Shown: in pieces, positions 35,637 to 57,237 of the stretch | Numbering within the stretch: the stretch's first letter is position 1 | Layout of the letters: each line of letters starts with the position of its first letter | Assembly: GCA_018657525.1 (NCBI GenBank) | Contig: JABHWZ010000004.1 | Location: 147,261-211,260, forward strand | Source: an archaeon | GTDB taxonomy: Archaea > Nanobdellota > Nanobdellia > Pacearchaeales > GW2011-AR1 | Length of the DNA stretch: 64,000 bases | Direction of reading: 5' to 3' | Translations under genes and position numbers: made by a program | The notes under the pieces: model-generated | The model's database searches: none | The model's input: only the letters and a program-made list of their open reading frames with translations | What the model was told of the DNA's origin: nothing

Positions 35637-35975
35637 CTAACTTGCTGCCACCCCTTTAACCGCCCGTACCCCGAGATGAGGATCCTGGAAATCGGGATTC
35701 CCATTGCAAAGGAAATTCGGGTAGTTCTGAAAAACATCAAACCCCGCAACTCTTCCATCTTCTGGGGCCCAAAAATATAAATCTCCTTCAGGAACATCTG
35801 CTCTTGGAAGCCCTTGTTTTGTTGGATTGTTTAACCATGAATCTAAACTAATTCCAGGAATTTTACTTTCTCCCAAATAATCTTCTAGTTTTTCTGCTTT
35901 TGTTTTGTTTTGAGTTAGAATATACATTCCATCAGATCTTTGTTCAAAATAAGCGTCAAGCCATTCTGATCTCAT
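35637..35975 (-). CDS. Protein with possible FGE/SUMF-like C-terminal segment
   Basis: 'GDLYFWAPEDGRVAGFDVFQNYPNFLCNGNPDFQDPHLGVRAVK'. Confidence 0.45.
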   Translation of the reverse strand: MRSEWLDAYFEQRSDGMYILTQNKTKAEKLEDYLGESKIPGISLDSWLNNPTKQGLPRADVPEGDLYFWAPEDGRVAGFDVFQNYPNFLCNGNPDFQDPHLGVRAVKGVAAS

Positions 35976-36348
35976 AGATTTCTGGTCTTTCTGTTTTTAC
36001 ATGTTTTAGGAATTCTATAAATTCAGGAATTGTTAACATTCTTGAATTTTCTTCTGCTAGAGCATTATGACATTCATACCAGTTTTTATTTTGATGAGTT
36101 CTTTGTTCTGCAATCTGAAGTTTTATTGAGGGGATGTAAATGAAACCGGGCATTGATGGGACGGTTGCTGGTTCTCTTTCTTCTTCCTCCTCTTGAACTT
36201 CTGGTTTTAGAGTTGAAGGTTTTAGTATTTGATCATTAAAAACAATGACTCCTGCTTTGACTAATCTGGGTATATGTTCTTTAGGATTCTTTGGAATGTA
36301 AATTTCTTTTTTTCTTGGAGTGTCTCCGATTATTTGTAGTTGTTTCAT
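35956..36348 (-). CDS. Protein with 'MKQLQIIGDTPRKKEIYIPKNPKEHIPRL' N-terminal module
   Basis: N-terminus matches 56416..57237; start chosen at the internal MKQLQ (the ORF track starts at 36426). Confidence 0.55.
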   Translation of the reverse strand: MKQLQIIGDTPRKKEIYIPKNPKEHIPRLVKAGVIVFNDQILKPSTLKPEVQEEEEEREPATVPSMPGFIYIPSIKLQIAEQRTHQNKNWYECHNALAEENSRMLTIPEFIEFLKHVKTERPEIYEIRMA

Positions 36349-36493
36349 GTTTTTGAGAGAAATAAGGAACTTATAAAGTTTGTGATTTGTCACCTCTAAA
36401 AAAAGGTAACTTGATAATTTATGCATAAGGTATTTGATTCCAAATCTTTATAATCTATAAAAAGCATATTTATATGAAATTGACTGTGATAAA

Positions 36494-37990
36494 ATGAGAC
36501 TAAATATTTTATTTGGAGGGCCGGCTGGAACTGGACCGAATATCTTAACGCACATCTTAGCTGAAGCCCTTGTCGCAAAAGGTTATTATGTTTTTTATGC
36601 GCGGGATTACCAGTCATTAATAAGAGGGGGGCATAACTTCAATGTTTTAACTATCTCAGAAGAACCAGTTAATTCGAATGATTCGGAAATAGATGTTTTA
36701 GTCTGTTTAGATGAGACAACTAAAAAAATGCATGAGAAAGATTTGAAAAAAGACGGAATTTTAATCTCAAAAGAAAAAGAACCGAATATGTATTTTGCTG
36801 GAAGAATCTTTAAACTTTTAGGATTAGAGCTAGAAGATTTGTATGCACAATTCAAAAAACTTGAGAAAAGATATGAAGAAAATGTTAAAGAATCAAAGCA
36901 AGGTTATGAAGAAGAAAAAGAAACGATGAAACTTCCTGAATCTCCGAAGATAAAAGCTAATTTTAGCAATGGTTCCCAGGGGATTAGAGATGGTGCTTTG
37001 AAGTCTGGACTTGAAATTTATTATGCTTATCCGATGACTCCTGCGACTCCAGTTTTAACTGAATTAAGTCAGGCTATGTTGGATAAAAAAAATAAGCATC
37101 TTACTGTTGAGTTAGAAAATGAAATTGCGGTTGCTAATGCAGGGGTTGGCAGTTGTATGGCCGGGGGGAAGGTAATGGTTGGGACATCGGGGGGAGGTTT
37201 TGATTTAATGGGGGAAACTTTAAGTTTAACTGGAATTGCAGAAATTCCTTTGGTGTTTTATTTGGCACAAAGACCTGGGCCAGGGACAGGAGTTGCCACT
37301 TATACTGGACAGGGAGATATGAAAATTGCGTTGAATTCTGGACATGGGGAATTCTCGAGGATTGTCGTTGCTCCGGGGGATCCGCTTGAAGCAGAAGAAT
37401 TAACTAATGCCGCGTTTTACTTTTCACACAAATTTAAGACACCCTCAATAATTTTATCAGACAAACATCTAGGAGAAAGTTTTTATACTGGAGTTGGAAA
37501 ACCTGAATTAGAAAAAATTGAGGTTACAACAAAGTTGAGTAGGTTTAATTCTTATGAAGTTGATTCGGAAAGTTCAGCTACAGAAGATCCCAAGATTATT
37601 GAAAAGGAAATTATTAGAAGAATGAAGAAAATATGGGAGATTGAAAAAGAAGCGAAAAAATTTGAGGGATATAAAATTTATGGAAACGAAAATTCTGAAA
37701 ATGTTATAGTTAGTTGGGGAAGTACTAAAGGAGCTATTTTAGATTCAATAAAAGAATTAGATGTTAAATTTGTTCAAATTTTATTTTTAGAACCTTTTTC
37801 AAAAGAAGTTGCAAAAGAGTTAGAAGGAAAAAATATTCTTTTGGTCGAGAATAATTCAACTGCACCTTTGGCGAATTTAATTAGAGAAAAAACTGGGATA
37901 GTTATTGAAGACAAAAATAAAATATTGCGTTTTGATGGGCGGCCGTTTTTAGCAGATGAATTAAAAATGGAGATCAAGAAAAGAATATGA
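36494..37990 (+). CDS. korA: 2-oxoacid:acceptor oxidoreductase alpha subunit with fused gamma domain
   Basis: N-terminal 'GPAGTGPNILTHILAEAL' gamma-like; 'YAYPMTPATPVLTELS', 'QRPGPGTGVATYTGQGDM'. Confidence 0.9.
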   Translation: MRLNILFGGPAGTGPNILTHILAEALVAKGYYVFYARDYQSLIRGGHNFNVLTISEEPVNSNDSEIDVLVCLDETTKKMHEKDLKKDGILISKEKEPNMYFAGRIFKLLGLELEDLYAQFKKLEKRYEENVKESKQGYEEEKETMKLPESPKIKANFSNGSQGIRDGALKSGLEIYYAYPMTPATPVLTELSQAMLDKKNKHLTVELENEIAVANAGVGSCMAGGKVMVGTSGGGFDLMGETLSLTGIAEIPLVFYLAQRPGPGTGVATYTGQGDMKIALNSGHGEFSRIVVAPGDPLEAEELTNAAFYFSHKFKTPSIILSDKHLGESFYTGVGKPELEKIEVTTKLSRFNSYEVDSESSATEDPKIIEKEIIRRMKKIWEIEKEAKKFEGYKIYGNENSENVIVSWGSTKGAILDSIKELDVKFVQILFLEPFSKEVAKELEGKNILLVENNSTAPLANLIREKTGIVIEDKNKILRFDGRPFLADELKMEIKKRI

Positions 37991-38337
37991 AACAGAAAAC
38001 AAATATTTTGATTAGCACGTTATTATTAATGGCACTCGGATTGATTTTATTAAAATATCTGCCAATGTATTTTTTTGGGCAAAATATTCTTTTTGATGCA
38101 TCGCAACATATTGTGCTTTTGGCTTTTGGACTTTACTTTATTTATATTTTTATAGAGAATAAACCAAAGATTAGAATTCCGTATATGATTCTGTCGGCAA
38201 TGCTCTTGACAATTATTGGGATTCAAAGAATTATTGCTAAGGCACATAATGAATATGGAGTTCTGCTAGGATTTTTAGTTGCAGGTATTTCAATTTTGAT
38301 TCCGCGGTGGAAAGAAGTTCGGAGGGTTGGGAAATGA
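37987..38337 (+). CDS. Small membrane protein in kor operon
   Basis: Hydrophobic segments; ATGA overlap with korA. Confidence 0.65.
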   Translation: MKQKTNILISTLLLMALGLILLKYLPMYFFGQNILFDASQHIVLLAFGLYFIYIFIENKPKIRIPYMILSAMLLTIIGIQRIIAKAHNEYGVLLGFLVAGISILIPRWKEVRRVGK

Positions 38338-38801
38338 AAATAAGAAAAGCTACTAAAAAAGATGAAAAAGAATTTTTGAAAGTTCAGAAAAAAGCTTTTC
38401 CAAATTTAAATTCTAAAAAACAAGCACTTTATTTTGAAGAAAAAATTAAGAAAAAAGAAATATTTGTTGCGGAGCAAAAGGGAGAATATGCTGGGCATAA
38501 TTGTTTTGGAAAATATTTGTTAGCCCCCCCATTTTCACGAGGAGTTTTTTTAGAAGAACTAGCAGTAAAGAAGAAATTTCGTGGCGAAGGAATTGGAACA
38601 AATTTAATAAATGCATTAATCAAATTCTGTAAAAAGAATAAAATAAATATGTTTTATTTAAGCACAGGGGATTTTAAAGCAAATAAAGCAATTAAATATT
38701 ACAAAAAATTGGGTTTTAAAATAGTTGGGAAGATGAAAGATATTAACCCAAAATCTGAATATAGTTATGGAGAAATTTTCATGGCGAAGGTGATAAAATG
38801 A
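38334..38801 (+). CDS. GNAT-family acetyltransferase
   Basis: 'LEELAVKKKFRGEGIGTNLINALIKFCKK', 'AIKYYKKLGFKIVG'; ATGA overlap. Confidence 0.85.
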   Translation: MKIRKATKKDEKEFLKVQKKAFPNLNSKKQALYFEEKIKKKEIFVAEQKGEYAGHNCFGKYLLAPPFSRGVFLEELAVKKKFRGEGIGTNLINALIKFCKKNKINMFYLSTGDFKANKAIKYYKKLGFKIVGKMKDINPKSEYSYGEIFMAKVIK

Positions 38802-39622
38802 AAAAATCTCCTAAGGGAATTATAGAGGATATAAAAGATCCACATTTGGAATCTGCATATCTAAAATTTCCAGGTAGAGAAATGCAAGAAGTAAGTCTAG
38901 AAAGAAATAGAAGAAGTGTTTCATCTGATCCACAAAAAATAGAAAAATTAGTCATGGAACGATGTAAAGTTGCAGAGAAAAGATATAATATGGGGCTTGC
39001 AGTACATAGTAAAATTCATACTCATCCAACAGAAAAGGGGAAACCTTATGGAGCACTGCCAAGTAGAAGGGATATGACTAATTTTTTGGGTAATACCCGA
39101 ATAAGAAATATGGTAATCGCGCAAACTGATCCAGATACTGGAAAAACTCAAGGATATTTTGTATTAAGAAAAAAGGGGGGAGCAATTCCTAGATTTTTTA
39201 AGGACCCAGAGGAGATAAAGGAGGGGGTTGGATTTTATGGTAGAATTGGATTTGCGGCAGGTAGCCCAAGTATGGCCCTTAAACAATTTGCAGAGGGATT
39301 TAATCTTCAATATCGATGGATTCCGGCTAAAGGATATGAACTTGCAGATGAAACTAAAGGTAATCTTTGGAGTTTTGTAAAAAGAAATTCGGAAGGAGCA
39401 TTAGAAAAAGGATTACAAGGAGCAAAACAAATTGCCATTATTATTGGATTTATAGGGGCATTATTCTTTCTCTCCCCAAAAATAACTGGCCACTCCATCG
39501 GGAATAGAATAAATCCTACCACAATTGGCATTATAACAATTTTATTTATTCTTGGATTAACAATCTTTTATCTTAGGAAAAGATATTTAATAAAAAAACG
39601 TCTGGAGATTAATATAAAATGA
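38798..39622 (+). CDS. JAMM/MPN-like metalloprotease-fold protein with two C-terminal TM helices
   Basis: 'HSKIHTHPTEKGKPYGALPSRRDM' fits HxHP...SxxD with a longer spacing; ATGA overlap. Confidence 0.5.
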   Translation: MKKSPKGIIEDIKDPHLESAYLKFPGREMQEVSLERNRRSVSSDPQKIEKLVMERCKVAEKRYNMGLAVHSKIHTHPTEKGKPYGALPSRRDMTNFLGNTRIRNMVIAQTDPDTGKTQGYFVLRKKGGAIPRFFKDPEEIKEGVGFYGRIGFAAGSPSMALKQFAEGFNLQYRWIPAKGYELADETKGNLWSFVKRNSEGALEKGLQGAKQIAIIIGFIGALFFLSPKITGHSIGNRINPTTIGIITILFILGLTIFYLRKRYLIKKRLEINIK

Positions 39623-40473
39623 CAAATAAAAATCCAATTGTTTTTAGTGGAAAAAATATTCGCAGAATTTGGCATGACAAAGGTTGGTTTTTTTCTGTGG
39701 TAGATATAATTGAAATTCTTACTGAATCTAAAAATCCAAGAAATTACTGGAATATGTTGAAGATTAGAGAAAAAGAATCTTCTGGAATTGAACTGTACAC
39801 AATTTGTGTACGATTGAAATTAACGGCTTCAGACGGGAAAATGAGGGAAACAGACTGTGCGAATAAAGAAAGTGTTTTTAGAATAATCCAGTCTATTCCT
39901 TCCAAAAAAGCAGAGCCATTCAAAAGATGGTTAGCAAAAGTTGGAAGCGAAAGAGTTGATGAAATAGAAAATCCTGAATTGGCTCAAACAAGAATGAAAT
40001 CTTTATATGAAAAAAAGGGTTATTCGAAAAATTGGATTGATAAAAGATTGAGAGGGATTGCAATAAGGCAAAATTTAACAGATGAATGGAAAAATCGAGG
40101 AGTTGAAGAAAATGTTGAGTATGCTATTTTGACTAATGAAATTAGTAAAGCTACTTTTGGCAAAACCATCAAAGAATATAAAGAGTTAAAAAATTTAAAT
40201 CAAGAAAATCTAAGAGACCATCTGGATGAATTGGAATTGATTTTTTCGATGTTGGGAGAAAAAGTTACAACTGAAATCACCCTTAATAAAAATGTGCAAG
40301 GATTCAAAGAATGTGAAACTGCAGCACAGCAAGGAGGAGAAGTGGCTGGAAATGCTCGGAAGGAAGCTGAATTAAAAATTGGAAAATCAGTTGTTTCTAA
40401 AGAAAATTATCTTCAAGATAATGAAAAGAATAAAAAGCAGAAAAATAATATTTTAGTAGAGGTTGGGAAATGA
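39619..40473 (+). CDS. BRO-N/DinD-like protein
   Basis: 'NIRRIWHDKGWFFSVVDIIEILTESKNPRNYWNMLKIRE', 'RWLAKVGSERVDEIENPELA'. Confidence 0.75.
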   Translation: MTNKNPIVFSGKNIRRIWHDKGWFFSVVDIIEILTESKNPRNYWNMLKIREKESSGIELYTICVRLKLTASDGKMRETDCANKESVFRIIQSIPSKKAEPFKRWLAKVGSERVDEIENPELAQTRMKSLYEKKGYSKNWIDKRLRGIAIRQNLTDEWKNRGVEENVEYAILTNEISKATFGKTIKEYKELKNLNQENLRDHLDELELIFSMLGEKVTTEITLNKNVQGFKECETAAQQGGEVAGNARKEAELKIGKSVVSKENYLQDNEKNKKQKNNILVEVGK

Positions 40474-41249
40474 AAAACTTAAACACTTCAACAACTCCGA
40501 CATGGTGTCCGGGATGTTTTAATTTTCAGATACTTGCGGGAGTGAAAAAAGTTCTTGCTGATTTAAAAGGCGAAACTGCAATTGTAACTGGAATCGGTTG
40601 TCACGCTAAACTTTTTGATTATGTTAATTTGCCTGGGATAAATACTCTTCATGGTAGAGTTCCTCCTACGTGTTTGGGTTTAAAAATTGCAAAACCGGAT
40701 TTGAATGTTATTGGATTTTCAGGGGACGGAGATGCTTATGCAGAAGGGATGGCGCACACAATTGCGGCTGCGCGTTATAATTCTAATTTTAAATATGTGG
40801 TTCACAATAATCAGGTTTTTGCTTTGACTGTTGGGCAACCAACTCCGACTTCGCCAAAAGGTTTTGTGGATAAGACAACTCCGCGCGGAGTTAAAATTCC
40901 TCCGATTAATCCAATTAAATTAATGCTTTCTGCGGGGGCAACTTTTGTTGCACGAGTTTTTGCAGATATTAATTCAGTTGAAGAAGTTTTGAAAGAAGCA
41001 ATGAAACATAAAGGATTTGCATTTATTGAAGTTATACAGCCGTGCATAATTTTCCAACCGCAAACTGGATACAAAGAGAAGATTTATAATTTACAAGAAA
41101 GCGGGCATGATAAATCTGATTTAAAATCTGCGATGGAAAGAGCAGATGAATTTGATTATCAAAAAGTTGAAGAAAAAACAAAAATTCCGACAGGAATTTT
41201 TTATCAAACTGAGAAACCTATTTTTGAAAAAGAAATAAGGAAGGATTAA
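40470..41249 (+). CDS. korB: 2-oxoacid:acceptor oxidoreductase beta subunit (TPP-binding)
   Basis: 'WCPGCFNFQI', 'GIGCHAKLFDYVN', 'GDGDAYAEGMAHTIAAARYN'. Confidence 0.95.
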   Translation: MKNLNTSTTPTWCPGCFNFQILAGVKKVLADLKGETAIVTGIGCHAKLFDYVNLPGINTLHGRVPPTCLGLKIAKPDLNVIGFSGDGDAYAEGMAHTIAAARYNSNFKYVVHNNQVFALTVGQPTPTSPKGFVDKTTPRGVKIPPINPIKLMLSAGATFVARVFADINSVEEVLKEAMKHKGFAFIEVIQPCIIFQPQTGYKEKIYNLQESGHDKSDLKSAMERADEFDYQKVEEKTKIPTGIFYQTEKPIFEKEIRKD

Positions 41250-56415: not shown

Positions 56416-57237
56416 TTAATTAAATTTCATTACCCGAAAAGCAAGATCTTCAGCACGCGGATCCCTTTGGCAAGCAAGAATAATCCTGCGTGAATCATTG
56501 CCCAACCTCACAACCCCCACATATTTTTCTCTGGGTCGTGAATTAAATCTCCATAAATAAGTGGGAGATTTAATTAATTTTTGACTTATTCTATCTAATC
56601 TTTGGATGTCATTTGTTCCAAGAACTAAAGATAAAGATTGTGTTTCATGGGGGGGAATATCTCCAATCCAGCTACTTCTCCCAACTAAATCTCCCTCCAA
56701 AGTATATTCATCTGAAGTCCCATAATTGTGAATTACTTTATCTTGTTCTCCCTCAGGCATATAAACAATTCTGGATAAAGTATTTGGAGATTGTCGCATC
56801 CAAGATTGAATAAACTGGATTAAATTATGGTATTCTTCTGGATTAATTTTACCTTCTAACTTTGTAGATGCTTCAAAGATTGCCCAGAGAGTATTTGATG
56901 CGCAAGCATAAGGATTTCCATTTCTTTTTCCTCTTTCTGAATATTCTGCTAAAGCGTCTTGATTCATTGAGGGAGTCATTTGTTTCATCAATCGATAAGT
57001 TGAAATTTCTCCTCGGTCCTCAACATTGGGAATTGTAAAATATGCCTCTGCTTCTATTGTTTGAGGAACATTCCTTTCTTCCTCCTCTCGAACTTCTGGT
57101 TTTAAGATTGGAGTTTTTGGTGTTTGATTATTTAAAGTTATAATTCCTGCTTCGATTAGTCTGGGTATATGTTCTTTAGGATTCTCTGGAATGTAAATTT
57201 CTTTTTTTCTTGGAGTGTCTCCTATTATTTGTTTCAT
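56416..57237 (-). CDS. Protein with 'MKQIIGDTPRKKEIYIPENPKEHIPRL' N-terminal module
   Basis: N-terminus shared with 35956..36348; adjacent to MoxR-like ATPase. Confidence 0.65.
   Translation of the reverse strand: MKQIIGDTPRKKEIYIPENPKEHIPRLIEAGIITLNNQTPKTPILKPEVREEEERNVPQTIEAEAYFTIPNVEDRGEISTYRLMKQMTPSMNQDALAEYSERGKRNGNPYACASNTLWAIFEASTKLEGKINPEEYHNLIQFIQSWMRQSPNTLSRIVYMPEGEQDKVIHNYGTSDEYTLEGDLVGRSSWIGDIPPHETQSLSLVLGTNDIQRLDRISQKLIKSPTYLWRFNSRPREKYVGVVRLGNDSRRIILACQRDPRAEDLAFRVMKFN

Follow-up and report, generated by a model that had tools for sequence, protein, structure and literature searches.

The korA–korB junction as a recurrent gene-insertion slot in a DPANN order

Introduction

Under operon theory, genes that encode the parts of one heteromeric enzyme are expected to remain together. 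In a 64,000-nucleotide stretch of archaeal DNA (contig JABHWZ010000004.1; hereafter the window), korA and korB, the genes for the two subunits of a 2-oxoacid:ferredoxin oxidoreductase, are instead separated by four others, and every gene in the run overlaps the next by the same 4 nt. The host is an 828-kb, 84%-complete genome assembly whose kor relatives are labelled mostly Pacearchaeota, Nanoarchaeota or Woesearchaeota, that is, DPANN archaea, a group of tiny, symbiont-type organisms. Comparison across its order shows that the space between korA and korB behaves as a slot that repeatedly takes up genes and turns them over quickly. The genes for a core enzyme are thus separated in about half of the loci by changing genes, with the predicted translational link mostly kept, which offers a testable case of small-genome archaea gaining genes without new promoters.

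Results

Six overlapping genes at the kor locus

An earlier note on this DNA, made from the letters alone, described six open reading frames (ORFs) between positions 36494 and 41249, joined by five identical ATGA overlaps, and we recovered all of them at these positions. The features of the run, including Shine-Dalgarno (SD)-like motifs, are as follows.

36453..36478, plus strand: putative TATA-type archaeal promoter CTATAAAAAGCATATTTATAT, just 5' of korA, as read by eye
36494..37990, plus strand: korA, fused gamma/alpha subunit of 2-oxoacid:ferredoxin oxidoreductase, 498 aa (Pfam)
37987..37990, plus strand: ATGA overlap 1 (korA/membrane gene), SD-like TGGAGATC upstream (sequence)
37987..38337, plus strand: small membrane protein, 116 aa, resembling the C-terminal part of PAP2 (weak Pfam match, below cut-off)
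38326..38340, plus strand: 15-nt repeat GTTGGGAAATGAAAA, copy 1, at the end of the membrane gene, with ATGA overlap 2 inside (sequence)
38334..38801, plus strand: GNAT N-acetyltransferase, 155 aa, flanked by ATGA overlaps 2 (38334-38337) and 3 (38798-38801) (PF00583)
38798..39622, plus strand: JAMM-motif protein, 274 aa, with two C-terminal transmembrane helices (E18, H74-x-H76, S89-x2-D92)
39619..39622, plus strand: ATGA overlap 4 (JAMM-motif gene/BRO gene), SD-like CTGGAGATT upstream (sequence)
39619..40473, plus strand: Bro-N/DinD-like protein, 284 aa, PADLOC candidate defence family PDC-S13 (profiles)
40462..40476, plus strand: 15-nt repeat GTTGGGAAATGAAAA, copy 2, at the end of the BRO gene, with the korB ATGA (overlap 5) inside (sequence)
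40470..41249, plus strand: korB, TPP-binding beta subunit of 2-oxoacid:ferredoxin oxidoreductase, 259 aa (Pfam, 5b48_B)

With the putative promoter at 36453..36478, korA, starting at 36494, would have almost no leader. The run is closed by korB, whose 3' neighbour lies on the minus strand. An alternative GTG start for the GNAT ORF is present upstream at 38307; the ATG at 38334 is the one that yields the overlap. The ATGA/TGATG overlap typical of termination-reinitiation operons is found at 5/5 junctions, with an SD-like motif ahead of each of the five starts. Such a series is unlikely to arise by chance, because only 44 of 360 neighbouring same-strand pairs in the flanks of kor loci overlap by 4 nt (12%, giving ~3e-5), or 44 of 212 when pairs are restricted to those no more than 50 nt apart (21%, giving ~4e-4). 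ORFs were called with a simple script that favours ATGA starts, and the background was called under the identical rule.

The domain content of KorA and KorB solidly identifies both as genuine 2-oxoacid:ferredoxin oxidoreductase (OFOR) subunits. KorA, the sole POR-family match in the 84%-complete host genome, carries POR_N (6.4e-39) and POR (7.4e-17) and has as its best solved relative an OFOR chain, 5b48_A (3.4e-63), while KorB carries TPP_enzyme_C (2.1e-29) and PFO_beta_C (6.9e-11) with CxxC and is closest to 5b48_B (4.6e-47); these are the domains that characterize a KorAB/OFOR pair. The KorA match to NCBIfam OAFO_sf falls below its cut-off, and neither subunit reaches the NCBIfam equivalog cut-offs for a particular substrate class. 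The solved archaeal two-subunit enzyme (5b46-5b48) has the same korA/korB sequence and domain order as the window, but the window korA is shorter (498 vs 627 aa) and its subunit genes are split by four others, so that the usual, though not strictly defining, adjacency gives way to a distance of 2479 nt. At L049 and L129 (genome G159, contig C2), korA itself appears to be divided into two ORFs (query 1-119 and 128-498), through either a frameshift or a real fission.

The junction is filled in about half of the loci and turns over rapidly

Within the order, korA is present in 117 of 207 genomes, from which 100 regions were taken for comparison; 99 loci, the window included, have korA and korB in order. 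A junction was scored as empty when the gap was <200 nt and as filled when a gap of at least 200 nt held same-strand genes. By this measure 50 of the 99 loci are empty and 49 filled, with gaps of 238-2479 nt, the longest being that of the window. The expectation that KorA and KorB are normally encoded side by side is borne out beyond the order, where none of nine loci (L058-L060, L062-L067) has an insert, yet it describes only about half of this order.

Filled slots carry one to four genes, mostly ATGA-coupled. The 78 captured ORFs, all on the operon strand, fall into 46 single-linkage families, and families unique to one slot occur in 30 loci. Named by Pfam counts and in some cases by reading of the sequences, they include 16 GNATs, five serine hydrolases and five relatives of one another in the family of the window's membrane protein (that protein counted among the five), together with small membrane proteins, kinases, phosphoribosyl- and nucleotidyltransferases, a methyltransferase, a deaminase and others. 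In one locus a tRNA-Asp gene, on the operon strand, sits within the gap (L137, 5776-5859, minus; genome G008). When gene order between korA and korB is compared in relatives, as the earlier note had suggested, the window's own set of four is absent elsewhere, whereas the slot itself is filled repeatedly; the worry that the insertion might be unique to this assembly applies to the former and not to the latter.

Even sister genomes usually differ. One locus (L132) is empty and its sister (L145) holds a GNAT at a summed branch length of 0.14; L078 is empty and L082 filled; and L134 and L141 have one GNAT in common and otherwise differ. On a KorA+KorB tree of 97 loci, the filled/empty state changes 33 times, against a mean of 32.6 for shuffled labels, indicating that it has no phylogenetic signal. 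Genes enter and leave the slot faster than the sampled genomes can resolve, and this quick turnover gives each genome a different load. A single ancient insertion followed by losses is ruled out by the 46 families and by the lack of phylogenetic signal in the filled state. A search of the literature on operon-internal capture slots found nothing specific.

ATGA overlaps and SD-like motifs mark the junction

ATGA overlaps are present at 34 of 50 empty slots and, in filled ones, at 37 of 49 left, 21 of 29 inner and 26 of 49 right junctions, all well above the background given above. An SD-like motif accompanies 50 of 84 ATGA junctions, compared with 8% at displaced control positions. The overlap belongs to the site and not to the gene, as judged from the 29 BRO homologues elsewhere: none has an ATGA joint with a preceding ORF that is 50 aa or longer. 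The PAP2-like slot genes of relatives end in TAA with no overlap, and the tail of the window copy is altered to an SD-like motif plus ATGA. Termination-reinitiation at ATGA has been shown by experiment for other gene pairs in Haloferax volcanii and E. coli (PMC6728339; Nat Commun 2019). Those pairs resemble the window in having a stop/start overlap with an SD-like motif in the upstream gene; they differ in that the overlaps here frame variable, unrelated genes between the subunits of one enzyme, where coupling is predicted by analogy.

As a control we used rrp41-rrp42, a pair encoding exosome subunits, in which inserts of ~200-285 nt occur in 4 of 40 genomes (L247, L252, L271, L272). All four sit behind the ATGA end of rrp41, indicating that capture at ATGA joints is not limited to korA–korB. 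By comparison, 16 of 39 matched genomes carry an insert between korA and korB (Fisher p = 0.0018 against rrp41-rrp42). The proposal that such a slot is a general property of conserved gene pairs is weakened by the low count for rrp41-rrp42, although the few inserts there also follow an ATGA end. ATGA-coupled ORFs are also rare on the outer flanks of the kor pair (6/94 after korB, 9/94 before korA), and the interior of the pair is therefore unusual.

The four genes between korA and korB

The first inserted gene, labelled a membrane protein, has a PAP2 match (PF01569, 3.5e-5, 24 bits) that covers the C-terminal part of PAP2 alone and lies under the cut-off. Its homologues occupy the korA–korB gap in four related genomes, G084, the tree sister of the window genome, and G150, G151 and G152. 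There it stands immediately before korB, and in the window it comes straight after korA, so it was probably the first arrival, with the three other genes (GNAT, JAMM-motif and BRO) inserted later between it and korB. The GNAT assignment is correct (PF00583, 4e-15, 56.6 bits vs a cut-off of 20.7).

For the third gene, the JAMM-like label is favoured by a conserved motif and finds no counterpart in profile or structure searches. Residues E18, H74, H76, P88 and D92 are invariant among eight homologues, and the conserved E...HxH...Sx2D pattern of JAMM/MPN+ metalloproteases is present in the window protein; in an alignment of 13, a more distant homologue (L179) is without the histidines. Pfam, PHROG and PDB profiles gave no match, and a fold search run on a low-confidence model from the single sequence (pLDDT 58.9) yielded nothing meaningful. 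The C-terminus (~190-270) forms two helices with the pattern TGN..I.NL....SN..G..LF..GL.G...YF+RK, and this stretch recurs in many seemingly unrelated proteins in ~45 genomes of the order; it is a membrane-anchor module in wide use, and perhaps a sorting signal.

The Bro-N assignment of the fourth gene is upheld (PF02498, 1.2e-10), but its identification as DinD is not, the NCBIfam PRK11525 score being 23 bits against a cut-off of 242. In place of the suggested DNA-damage context, a candidate phage-defence family fits better: PDC-S13 matches residues 1-275 of 284 at 4.6e-119 (PADLOC), and phrog_15286 matches at 1.8e-93. S13 has been described as a mostly bacterial candidate system that archaea probably gained through transfer, and several such candidate systems are enriched in DPANN (PMC12988326). 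The window protein shares 71% identity with its counterpart in genome G020, compared with 51% for KorA between these genomes, which suggests that BRO has been transferred. In G116 and other genomes, PDC-S13-like BRO genes number up to eight full or partial copies; the copies are dispersed, with many fragments and stop-containing remnants, and are mostly 50-71% identical between genera, so that BRO appears, by sequence comparison, to be a fast-moving single gene. Base composition was considered as a further sign of transfer for the inserted genes, but the differences in GC (0.27-0.34, compared with 0.35-0.36 for korA/korB and 0.32 for the window) are not decisive.

Discussion

A probable capture slot in a proposed translational chain

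We consider it likely that in this DPANN order genes are captured again and again at the korA–korB junction and are kept when they can be fitted into an SD-ATGA termination-reinitiation chain. In its empty state, usually an ATGA overlap, the junction would couple KorB translation to that of KorA. Unrelated genes would land there and be retained if both of their ends fit the chain or become remodelled to fit. The unit of such a chain would be an SD-like motif within the 3' end of one gene followed by ATGA, at which terminating ribosomes would restart on the next gene; one ribosome could probably translate the whole run. A single promoter ahead of korA would drive the entire run, from korA through the captured genes to korB, as one polycistron, tying the output of the captured genes to the level of a core enzyme. 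On this reading the slot is tolerant and probably favoured, in that the SD-ATGA arrangement would let a newcomer be expressed while KorB translation continues unbroken, and functional selection may act on some newcomers, GNATs in particular.

Several observations weigh against this reading. The ATGA rule has exceptions, 12 among the 49 left junctions and 23 among the 49 right ones, and some of the short script-called ORFs may be false (one gap holds the tRNA-Asp gene). All of the genomes are fragmentary assemblies, and a single control pair is thin evidence that the interior of korA–korB is special. Among 59 within-locus pairs of insert ends, similarity showed no excess over between-locus pairs (p = 0.22), and hence no footprint of an insertion mechanism is seen. 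A slot that is frequently filled may also be just tolerated rather than favoured.

Why GNATs recur

The most credible alternative, compatible with a capture slot yet on balance doubtful, is functional recruitment, whereby the slot would select users or tuners, mainly GNATs, of the acyl-CoA or ferredoxin that KorAB makes. KorAB-type enzymes produce acyl-CoA, and GNATs consume it. GNATs account for 16 of the 78 captured ORFs, against just 6 among 825 genes in the flanks (Fisher p = 1e-13; 1e-11 when matched for size). The captured GNATs have a median identity of 24% between pairs and split into 11 groups at a 40% threshold, a diversity that points to many separate arrivals; their presence needs 14 changes on the KorA+KorB tree, where 15 loci carry them. 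Two of the six flanking GNATs lie directly after korB in one locus (L100) whose korA–korB gap is empty, suggesting that GNATs gather downstream of the pair too. A functional link to KorAB acyl-CoA would explain the excess, but for the other ~80% of the captured ORFs, which belong to other families, no connection with acyl-CoA is obvious. GNATs may also be just frequent travelling single genes. PF00583 matches average ~3.4 per genome of the group (126 in 37 genomes).

A more elaborate proposal, to which we give somewhat less credence still, casts the junction as an evolved docking site: SD plus ATGA would serve as a translational adaptor that expresses incoming SD-ATGA-ending genes in step with acyl-CoA production, GNATs being repeatedly selected as a sensing or acetylation output. 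The repeated arrival of acetyltransferases beside an acyl-CoA-making enzyme offers a way into the acetylation of proteins or metabolites in archaea that do not grow on their own.

Mobile elements, a dedicated cassette and assembly error

If the junction were the target of a site-specific process or of a mobile element, resembling an integron or a transposon, this would account for its high turnover and for the dispersed, repeated and often fragmentary BRO copies. It would also give meaning to the 15-nt repeat that flanks GNAT-JAMM-BRO, the first 12 nt of which, GTTGGGAAATGA, occur only twice in the 64-kb window (38326 and 40462). We nevertheless regard such a process as improbable. No integrase or transposase was recognised among the captured families, and the insert ends have nothing in common beyond ATGA/SD, and neither the recombinase nor the recurrent attachment sequence of an integron was found. 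The repeat is the best of the 59 within-locus pairs and may reflect chance plus the constraint of the SD motif; given the lack of end similarity overall, it is suggestive only. An extended target-site duplication or common attachment sequence was likewise sought at 84 ATGA junctions, with no excess.

Slightly less probable again is the proposal closest to that of the earlier note, in which the four genes form a dedicated cassette that acts with KorAB in a redox or stress response. The genes are indeed built into a central metabolic operon, and all four are tightly ATGA-coupled with korA and korB, but no defined redox or stress cassette emerges. The same set is found in no relative, whose slots carry unrelated genes, and the JAMM-motif and BRO homologues of other genomes sit outside the slot. 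We found no sign that the four products act together, and a fixed four-gene cassette is rejected on the absence of the set from every relative compared. Finally, an assembly chimera would suit a gene set found in one genome, from a genus otherwise absent from the compared set, but it is very improbable given that the junctions are exact 4-nt overlaps, that the membrane gene lies in the slot of four related genomes and that a like arrangement exists in 48 other loci.

Relation to known systems

Recurrent capture at korA–korB resembles mosaic operons formed by horizontal transfer, through displacement of genes or their insertion in situ, in which foreign genes likewise come to lie inside a conserved operon. 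It appears to differ from those accounts in that the inserts add to the operon instead of displacing its genes, and in that one junction is reused with different genes, usually with ATGA at both ends. With insertion hotspots, integrons and defence islands the slot shares a fixed place and a cargo that varies and extends to candidate defence (PDC-S13); unlike them, it lies within the operon of one complex, and no integrase, attachment site or repeat common to the slots was found.

A paralogous family in the window

Just upstream of korA, on the opposite strand, lies a gene (35956-36426, minus) with no Pfam match. Its product and that of a second gene (56416-57237, minus) have a near-identical start, IIGDTPRKKEIYIP+NPKEHIPRL++AGII, and together they represent an unnamed paralogous family.

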